Below, one piece after another: positions 43,862-45,783 of a stretch of 64,000 nucleotides of DNA (the stretch's first letter is position 1; the number at the start of each line of letters is the position of its first letter). Position numbers and translations under genes: made by a program. Origin of the DNA: Hallella colorans (GTDB lineage: Bacteria; Bacteroidota; Bacteroidia; Bacteroidales; Bacteroidaceae); assembly GCF_003096815.1 (NCBI RefSeq), contig NZ_QENY01000001.1:124001-188000 (forward strand). The letters run 5' to 3'. The notes below the pieces were generated by a model, which worked only from the letters and a program-made list of their open reading frames with translations, was not told where the DNA came from and did not search any database.

Positions 43862-44491
43862 TTACTCGTAAAATGCATCTGTATCAATTTCTAATTCTTC
43901 ACATTCTTTTATTTTATATTCTTTCCCACTATGACAGATAGCTCCTTTAAATTTAAAAGGAAAAGATATACACATGGAATCTTCTTCAGCATCTTGTTCT
44001 AAATCTGAACCATACTGAAGAGAAACTACTACCTTTCCATCACAAATGATATAAAGACTGTCGGATTTGATACTTATCTCACTTATATCTACCCCATATA
44101 CTTCTTCTATACTTGTATGGGTTGAAAGTTTATCTAATGCTGATGGGAAATCAAGTATAAAATAGTCATATAGTATAGAGTCAATATTATAAAAATCTAT
44201 TTTCTTTATCTCAGGGAAACGTGAAATGACTACTCTAAATTTAGCTTTAGGTACATTCTTAAAGTAATCAGCCATTGCCTTTATTCTTTGTTTTGCTTCA
44301 AAACTTTCCGTACGAGTTTTTAATTCTATATATACAATTTCATCATCCTTGATTGCTGCAAGGTCAACTCTAAAGGGACCTATCAAAACATTTTTTTTAA
44401 TAGTATATCCTTTTTTTTTATACTCATCAGCAATCTGCGCAAGAGTAGATTTTTCAAAGTTTTGTATTAAATAGTCTCTTAATGGTTTCAT
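43862..44491 (-). CDS. PD-(D/E)XK nuclease-like protein (cargo operon gene 3)
   Basis: 209 residues. Residues 40-60 read FRVDLAAIKDDEIVYIELKTR, the D-X12-E-x-K core of the PD-(D/E)XK fold (D43, E56, K58). An N-terminal helical part (MKPLRDYLIQNFEKSTLAQI) carries possible extra acidic ligands. The C-terminal half (about 125-209) is Asp/Glu-rich and does not match a family I know. Its ATG overlaps the stop of the RusA-like gene (ATGA), so translation is coupled. A DNA-cutting role is inferred from the motif. Confidence 0.75.
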   Translation of the reverse strand: MKPLRDYLIQNFEKSTLAQIADEYKKKGYTIKKNVLIGPFRVDLAAIKDDEIVYIELKTRTESFEAKQRIKAMADYFKNVPKAKFRVVISRFPEIKKIDFYNIDSILYDYFILDFPSALDKLSTHTSIEEVYGVDISEISIKSDSLYIICDGKVVVSLQYGSDLEQDAEEDSMCISFPFKFKGAICHSGKEYKIKECEELEIDTDAFYE

Positions 44492-44928
44492 ATACTAATT
44501 TCTCCTATTTTTACCATTGTATCATAAAATTTACTACATTCAAGATATAGACACTTAACATTCTTATCTGTTAATCCCTGCATTAATTCTACTGCCACAT
44601 CACCGTCTATTTTAGTTGCATCGATAGTAGTAATTGGATGACGTTCGACATCTATAACAGATGCCATGCGCAATACGATATTACAATCATCATCATATAA
44701 AAGCCCATTTAAAGCATCCCAAATTGGCTTACTAATGTTATCAGTATCGACATTAACTCCATCACTTGTGAAAAAAAACGCTTTTGCATATAATTCTATA
44801 CCAGTAGGGAATTTTGGCACATTCCCTTTGAATTTTTGCAAGAAAGCCGAGCGTATTTTTTTTTGATACACGTCTTTTCTTTTTGAGTTATATGATAGCG
44901 GTGCTACACCTCGAATTACTAATTCCAT
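44488..44928 (-). CDS. RusA-like Holliday junction resolvase (cargo operon gene 2)
   Basis: 146 residues. The motif DTDNISKPIWDALNGLLYDD (61-80) matches the RusA catalytic signature D.DN..K...DAL.G..Y.DD. The N-terminal half (MELVIRGVAPLSYNSKRKDV) fits the RusA strand arrangement. RusA enzymes resolve four-way DNA junctions; here the gene is held between a small protein and a nuclease-like gene. Its ATG directly follows the previous stop (TAAATG). Confidence 0.8.
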   Translation of the reverse strand: MELVIRGVAPLSYNSKRKDVYQKKIRSAFLQKFKGNVPKFPTGIELYAKAFFFTSDGVNVDTDNISKPIWDALNGLLYDDDCNIVLRMASVIDVERHPITTIDATKIDGDVAVELMQGLTDKNVKCLYLECSKFYDTMVKIGEISI

Positions 44929-45177
44929 TTAAAGTTCTAAAGAATTACAAATGTCATTAAATGAAGCCTCCCGTTCTAATTCATATATATTAAAGGATTC
45001 GTTCTCCTGTTTAATCCAAAAAATAACACCTCGTTTAAAAAAACATTCTCCTTCTTCTTCTCGCATCATAAGAGGATTCTTTTCAACAAAATCAGGAATA
45101 AATATGGGATAAGAATTTGCAACTTTCTTTAACTTTATTCCATTGTCATTATCTTTCGTTCTTAAGTACTTTAACAT
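44929..45177 (-). CDS. Small protein of unknown function (cargo operon gene 1)
   Basis: 82 residues, mixed charge, no signal peptide or membrane span. The N-terminal half is basic (MLKYLRTKDNDNGIKLKK), the C-terminal half acidic and aromatic (GVIFWIKQENESFNIYEL). No family recognised. It leads the three-gene operon and could be a regulator, an inhibitor or a DNA-binding partner of the two nuclease-like products. Confidence 0.6.
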   Translation of the reverse strand: MLKYLRTKDNDNGIKLKKVANSYPIFIPDFVEKNPLMMREEEGECFFKRGVIFWIKQENESFNIYELEREASFNDICNSLEL

Positions 45178-45276: not shown

Positions 45277-45783
45277 TTAAGAAATAAAGAACAATGCAAA
45301 CTCTACTTTTCTTCGCTTGACTAACCCTCTCAAAACCTTTCCCTTATATCGGCAGAACGAAACATACTCCCGATAGAAGTTCCTGTCTCCAGCCTCTATC
45401 TTTCGTAGCAGCCTACTCTTAGAATGTTTGCCATAACCGAGCAGTCGCCCCACGCCCACGTTATAGGCAAGTAGACTGAGTAACAGCGCATCCTTACCAT
45501 ACCCCTTAAAGTGTTCAAAGCATTTCCAAAGGTCGGCACGGAGCAGGGAATCCGCCTGTCGTTCCGTTATATCTGCTGTGAAACGTTCTCCTGGTTGCAG
45601 CTGATGCCCATATCCAACATACGGATAATTCTTCCAGCCGTGCATACCCTCAAAGTATTTCACTACGACAACTGCACGCTCAAAAGGTGGCAAGTCTGCC
45701 AACCGTACCCTGCGCTGGGCAAGGATCGGCTGGCAGAGCAAGCACATTATACAGAATAAAGCAAAGCGTTTAGCTGTTCGCAT
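45277..45783 (-). CDS. GH24-type lysozyme of the transfer operon
   Basis: 168 residues with a signal peptide (MRTAKRFALFCIMCLLCQPILAQ, cut after about 23). YFEGMHGWKNYPYVGYGHQL carries the catalytic Glu and the family's GYGH, and AYNVGVGRLLG is the typical C-terminal element. It opens the peptidoglycan for the mating channel. Last gene of the tra operon; overlaps traQ by 14 bases. Confidence 0.85.
   Translation of the reverse strand: MRTAKRFALFCIMCLLCQPILAQRRVRLADLPPFERAVVVVKYFEGMHGWKNYPYVGYGHQLQPGERFTADITERQADSLLRADLWKCFEHFKGYGKDALLLSLLAYNVGVGRLLGYGKHSKSRLLRKIEAGDRNFYREYVSFCRYKGKVLRGLVKRRKVEFALFFIS

Follow-up and report, generated by a model that had tools for sequence, protein, structure and literature searches.

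The closest described counterparts of the locus reported here are the RusA Holliday junction resolvases, the archaeal Holliday junction resolvase-like PD-(D/E)XK nucleases (Hjc), the Argonaute-associated pP_pnuc proteins, and Gabija. The abbreviation AHJR means archaeal Holliday junction resolvase (PMC1189080), and AHJR-like domains are found in proteins with a putative role in biological conflict, among them one HEPN-M fusion (PMC3710099). pPIWI-RE is another three-gene REase system, and terms relating to RusA are absent from the available part of its description (PMC3702460).

The locus couples a RusA-family gene (gene B) to a gene for an AHJR-like nuclease with a pP_pnuc_2 domain (gene C). 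Gene B resembles the RusA resolvases in passing the Pfam cut-off and in keeping the conserved acidic residues and K67, but it is translationally coupled to a second nuclease and has the stretch LYxECxxF after the region covered by Pfam. Gene C resembles the archaeal resolvase-like nucleases in its N-terminal half and in its D-ExK motif, and a low-confidence structure model recalls Hjc and other PD-(D/E)XK folds; it differs in that pP_pnuc_2 is joined to it and RusA is its partner. With the Argonaute-associated pP_pnuc proteins it shares pP_pnuc_2 and a match to the C-terminal part of Aga_Nuclease; in contrast to them, a PD-(D/E)XK domain takes the place of pP_pnuc_1, and the genome gives no match to the Pfam Piwi profile (PF02171), which was matched in 1 of 14 control genomes. 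Gabija adjoins the pair in one genome (G1099), but none of genes A, B, and C matches GajA or GajB up to an E value of 1, which makes Gabija a neighbor and not the same system. The matches in Pfam, PADLOC, PHROGs, and NCBIfam name single domains and never the pair. No open-licence paper was found that has RusA together with defense island, nuclease, and phage, and those that join RusA and Gabija have unrelated content in the parts available. The view that no described system has this gene order thus holds for the pair within the profile libraries and open-licence papers searched. Each domain is known, and the combination of RusA with AHJR-like/pP_pnuc_2 appears to be new.

The window, by which we mean the whole 64,000-nt stretch of DNA analyzed, corresponds to positions 124,001 to 188,000 of the forward strand of NZ_QENY01000001.1 from Hallella colorans (GCF_003096815.1). 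Profile matches in the window identify the ICE genes TraQ, PcfK, and PcfJ in addition to an ICE lysozyme gene. Three minus-strand open reading frames had been proposed at 43862-45177 in a sequence-only reading of this DNA, and all three are present at those positions (Table 1). Their junctions are also as described there: genes A and B abut (TAA ATG), and the end of gene B and the start of gene C share 4 nt (ATGA). The stretch had been called AT-rich, and few parts of the window are more so: its GC fraction is 0.305 against 0.440 for the window as a whole, and only 15/1254 windows of equal length have a lower value.

Table 1. Positions of the genes of the cargo stretch and of the ICE genes at its edges (window coordinates)
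Feature	Position	Strand	Description
Gene A	45177-44929	-	82 aa, abuts gene B
Gene B	44928-44488	-	146 aa, RusA family
Gene C	44491-43862	-	209 aa, AHJR-like + pP_pnuc_2
ICE lysozyme gene	45277-45783	-	Pfam Phage_lysozyme, 1.9e-12; stop codon marks the left cargo boundary
Cut-down ICE gene, 29 codons	43628-43717	+	Right edge of the cargo

Gene B encodes a RusA-family protein, a predicted endonuclease. Residues 13 to 90 match Pfam RusA (PF05866) at 1.6e-6 (29.1 bits, cut-off 22.8), and the protein also matches PHROG 34 (1.2e-6) and PHROG 140, both RusA-like resolvase. Residues D61, D63, N64, K67, D80, and D81 are invariant in 5/5 complete copies, in keeping with the RusA signature noted earlier at residues 61 to 80. 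These residues presumably correspond to the catalytic region of Escherichia coli RusA containing D70, D72, K76, and D91. The LYxECxxF stretch, at residues 127 to 134, is likewise invariant in all five. The structure model of gene B (pLDDT 44.4) was too poor for a structure search, and no chain in the PDB was matched by sequence up to an E value of 10.

Gene C consists of two domains. Residues 10 to 90 match the Pfam AHJR-like REase family (PF18743) at 1.8e-10 (40.9 bits, cut-off 26.1), and D43, E56, and K58, the predicted D-ExK catalytic motif, are invariant in 5/5 complete copies, in agreement with the nuclease core previously assigned to these three residues. The second domain, absent from the sequence-only reading, is pP_pnuc_2 (residues 105 to 208; 2.3e-16, 60.5 bits, cut-off 25), and residues 102 to 209 match the C-terminal part of PADLOC Aga_Nuclease at 5.1e-15. 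No match to pP_pnuc_1 was found in gene C up to an E value of 1, its N-terminal half being occupied by the AHJR-like domain. In a structure model of mean pLDDT 58, built from two sequences, the secondary-structure elements run H-E-E-E-H-E, as in a PD-(D/E)XK core, and are followed, at low confidence, by four long strands with short helices. The structures matched by residues 12 to 95 are PD-(D/E)XK proteins, with a best Z of 7.8 and Hjc entries at Z 5.1 to 6.3; these values lie below the level of a clear match and are taken as supportive only. Matches of the C-terminal half to Cystatin/NTF2-like structures (Z ~5) were not relied on because of the low confidence of the model, and PDB sequence searches returned nothing usable.

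Our comparison of genomes suggests that genes B and C form, almost certainly, a conserved unit of two genes that is transferred as one. In 5/5 complete C genes for which the upstream sequence is readable, RusA directly precedes gene C, and the two genes overlap in each case, by 4, 4, 4, 11, and 11 nt. The five complete pairs are from the window, L007 (OMYJ01000006.1, a rumen contig of uncultured Bacteroidales RUG083), G1099 (same order as the window), G519 (same class, another order), and G1348 (from the order and family of G519). In the four pairs other than that of the window, identity to the window proteins declines in step for B and C (68/62, 60/59, 29/34, and 32/27 percent). Between the window and L007 or G1099, nonsynonymous change (pN 0.19 to 0.22) is far below synonymous change (pS 0.66 to 0.81); no ratio is given, as synonymous sites are near saturation. 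A sixth copy, in G1416, contains both genes but is broken: its C gene is split over two frames, and its RusA gene, although free of stops, lacks a usual start codon in the first 33 codons and has the invariant W70 replaced by G. In a divergent C gene of G1064, E56 is replaced by V; this gene begins at base 56 of its contig, and a partner would not be visible there. The claimed coupling of a resolvase with a second nuclease is thus conserved between orders, and it recurs at sites associated with defense; homologs occur as the pair rather than only singly, and the pair matches no named system in the libraries and papers searched.

The full-length pair is rare, with 1/149 relatives, 2/395 genomes of the class, and 2/344 genomes of the order carrying it in overlapping samples that each include the genome of the window. 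It is found in 3/291 genomes of the order of G519, the broken copy included, and a RusA alignment searched against 159 genomes of the window's order (E <= 1e-5) detected the window only. Searches with gene C alone matched more genomes at E <= 1e-3, namely 6/149 relatives (5 weakly) with query P0003 and, with query A1, 54/395 genomes of the class (52 weakly only) and 87/344 of the order (83 weakly only). The weak matches are limited to the nuclease core, most of them in frames of ~120 to 150 codons, and were dropped; we read them, by judgment and not from inspection of each, as YraN-type proteins, and gene C itself gives YraN matches below the cut-off in the NCBIfam search. The phage, plasmid, and viral collections searched yielded no copy, only matches to a domain of C in plasmids. 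Gene C of the window (P0003) matched nothing in them, and query A1, further C copies, and RusA had no match in viral contigs. The C copy of G519 matched 14 plasmid records, by the C-terminal domain only, and no phage, and gene B gave 51 partial phage matches, all in records named Mycobacterium phage, and none in plasmids.

Gene A is probably a local addition outside the conserved pair. It has no match in Pfam, PADLOC, PHROGs, or NCBIfam, of 109 genomes searched none but the window's own contains it (1/109), and among 144 loci it was seen only in the five that overlap the window itself. Phages gave no match to it, and plasmids gave one at chance level (E 0.9). An open reading frame of at least 82 codons arose in this stretch in 10/5000 first-order Markov sequences, which makes a chance frame unlikely. 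No exact match to a Bacteroides-type promoter lies ahead of it. In the other genomes, the space between RusA and the preceding gene is 59 bp (G1099), 32 bp (G519), or 29 bp (G1348), and the 346 bp ahead of RusA in L007 hold a 117-aa open reading frame unrelated to gene A. A three-gene system, and with it the small partner protein of the sequence-only reading, was therefore rejected, as gene A is missing from every other B-C locus.

The position of the pair in the window is a cargo site of the ICE. Seven other ICE loci are homologous to the window up to the lysozyme stop codon (45284-45268), and homology restarts at about 43639 in L117 and at 43683 in L119 and L128; for the other four, no restart was found within the compared stretch. 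At the right edge, the sister ICE L117 has a 75-aa frame at the corresponding position, and 14/27 residues of the 29-codon frame are identical to its beginning; the truncated ICE gene reported beside the block is this 75-aa frame, cut down in the window. The contents after the lysozyme gene differ among the ICEs compared, as expected for the variable position that had been proposed. Sequence after the lysozyme gene was read in 16/29 loci, and 10 long open reading frames from 8 of them were searched against PADLOC. Six of the 10 had matches at 1e-4 or better, four strong (PDC-S45, SIR2, NsnA/PD-T4-2_A, and PDC-S06/PrrC) and two weak (Ppl/LmuB and PDC-M63B), and four had none; 6/10 is not an unbiased rate, as the frames were chosen for length. 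The remaining eight loci, inspected by eye, comprise the window's own, three with DJ-1-like and HU-like open reading frames, one repeat of L119, one with a transposase-like and one with a methyltransferase-like frame, and L117, which is nearly empty. The site (45277-43640 in the window; loci L116 to L143) is a variable cargo site across the ICEs of this genus, with defense-type genes in several.

RusA is best known as a recombination enzyme of phages and hosts, as the PHROG names reflect, and a role in repair is possible for this reason. The pair might be a recombination or repair helper that resolves junctions formed in integration, excision, replication, or recombination, to the benefit of the element or its host, and the resolvase relationship of both nuclease families is consistent with this. 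However, B and C follow the lysozyme gene in only 1/29 ICE loci, the window's own (some flanks are shorter than 1.5 kb), and the 28 others indicate that ICEs do without the pair. The genome of the window contains two more ICE lysozyme loci, on contigs C25 and C5 (L128 and L139), with the pair absent from the flank; the lysozyme proteins of these loci are 90% and 57% identical, respectively.

The pairs found in other genomes bear on the same alternative from both sides. In family f71, the pair lies after the housekeeping gene folD in three species (G519, G1348, and G1416), with one copy, that of G1416, broken, a setting that would suit a repair helper. folD is present in 60/61 genomes of the family, and the pair was found at 2/30 of the folD loci fetched (G519 and G1416), that of G1348 having come from a separate search outside this survey. 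In G1358, of the same genus as G519, the site is empty: homology breaks off where folD ends and is regained shortly ahead of the following gene. Here 56 bp separate folD from the sequence that is conserved again, against 1,120 bp in G519. The comparison reveals an exact two-gene presence/absence between congeneric species, and hosts that lack the pair beside close relatives that have it argue against a helper role. No recognized defense gene lies next to the pair in the f71 copies. Two further copies, in contrast, sit among defense genes. In G1099, GajA (4.5e-224) follows C by 25 bp and is followed by GajB (2.4e-212), a SoFic-type gene precedes RusA, and an AbiLi-type gene lies ~7 kb away. In L007, HerA (PADLOC, 1.7e-148; two genes from RusA), a KTSC protein, and a 343-aa protein are encoded upstream. 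Downstream lie genes for an HNH_5-like protein (E 0.0065, below the cut-off) and a deaminase-HATPase protein. In the same stretch (L007:6177-10175), the 343-aa protein has no Pfam match and lies between HerA/KTSC and RusA, and the HNH_5-like protein directly after C is 513 aa long. We regard the repair helper as unlikely.

The Gabija and HerA genes raise the possibility that the pair is an accessory module of the adjoining defense systems and not a system of its own. The 25-bp distance to GajA in G1099 and the presence of HerA upstream in L007 point in this direction, but the neighbors differ from one copy to another, and within the stretches read neither Gabija nor HerA adjoins the pair in the window or in f71; this explanation appears highly improbable. 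From its genomic context, the pair itself is probably a defense system. The defense-like character proposed in the sequence-only reading fits this context of defense-rich sites. The housekeeping neighbors in f71, the rarity of the pair, the broken copy in G1416, and the divergent C gene in G1064 qualify this reading, and the lack of copies in the phage, plasmid, and viral collections searched speaks against it as well.

The second domain of gene C connects the pair with Argonaute systems. pP_pnuc_2 follows pP_pnuc_1 within the same protein in L008, L070, L080, and L083, and in L080 the gene for this protein overlaps an Aga_SIR2 gene that itself comes after a pAgo_II gene. L080:6098-10037 is thus a three-gene Argonaute-SIR2 operon (pAgo_II, Aga_SIR2, and pP_pnuc_1/pP_pnuc_2) with the domain of gene C. 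The joining of pP_pnuc_2 to a recognized nuclease domain in gene C suggests that it is a sensing or docking domain rather than a catalytic one. A protein of this kind could also act by abortive infection, with the C nuclease inactive until pP_pnuc_2 or RusA senses infection and then degrading the DNA of the cell. The Argonaute-SIR2 arrangement and the AHJR-like domains of putative conflict proteins (HEPN-M fusion; PMC3710099) would be in line with this, whereas a sensing role would be unusual for RusA, and a pure sensor would not need the predicted catalytic residues that are kept in 5/5 copies. We consider abortive infection, too, an improbable explanation.

The mechanism that we tentatively prefer is that genes B and C are a mobile cassette, the products of which form a two-nuclease complex that cuts branched DNA of invaders and thereby protects the ICE and its host. 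The RusA-like and Hjc-like proteins would form one complex, as the overlap of their genes and the conserved C-terminal stretch of RusA suggest. What it recognizes would be the branched or recombining DNA of phages, plasmids, or rival elements that enter the cell, a target suggested by the membership of both nucleases in resolvase-related families, and cutting of this DNA would protect the ICE and host; pP_pnuc_2, reused in the Argonaute-SIR2 operon, would serve as the sensing or docking domain. At the level of sequence, the support comes from the pairing, the overlap, the intact predicted catalytic residues, the excess of synonymous change, the two-gene presence/absence, and the defense-rich sites. 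That branched DNA is cut is the best mechanism we can infer, and it draws on family resemblance.

A further but doubtful possibility is a new type of prokaryotic defense in which two different junction-resolvase-type nucleases act in one complex and tell invader from self by the branch structure of the DNA. What is recognized in such a system would be replication or recombination intermediates, not sequence or modification, and pP_pnuc_2 would be a reusable domain for docking or sensing that Argonaute systems have in common with it. If true, this would be a compact defense built from recombination enzymes, and elements might use the shape of DNA as a mark of foreign DNA. pP_pnuc_2, although labeled a predicted nuclease, may be a sensing or docking domain in Argonaute systems too. 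pP_pnuc-type genes also occur on plasmid Rts1 (L070:3452-5922) and in Rahnella (L072:3452-5913), where each is followed by a gene for an unassigned protein of ~460 aa. That of Rts1 has no Pfam match, and in Rahnella, genes for an OLD-like ATPase and a UvrD-type helicase are located just before the pP_pnuc-type gene.
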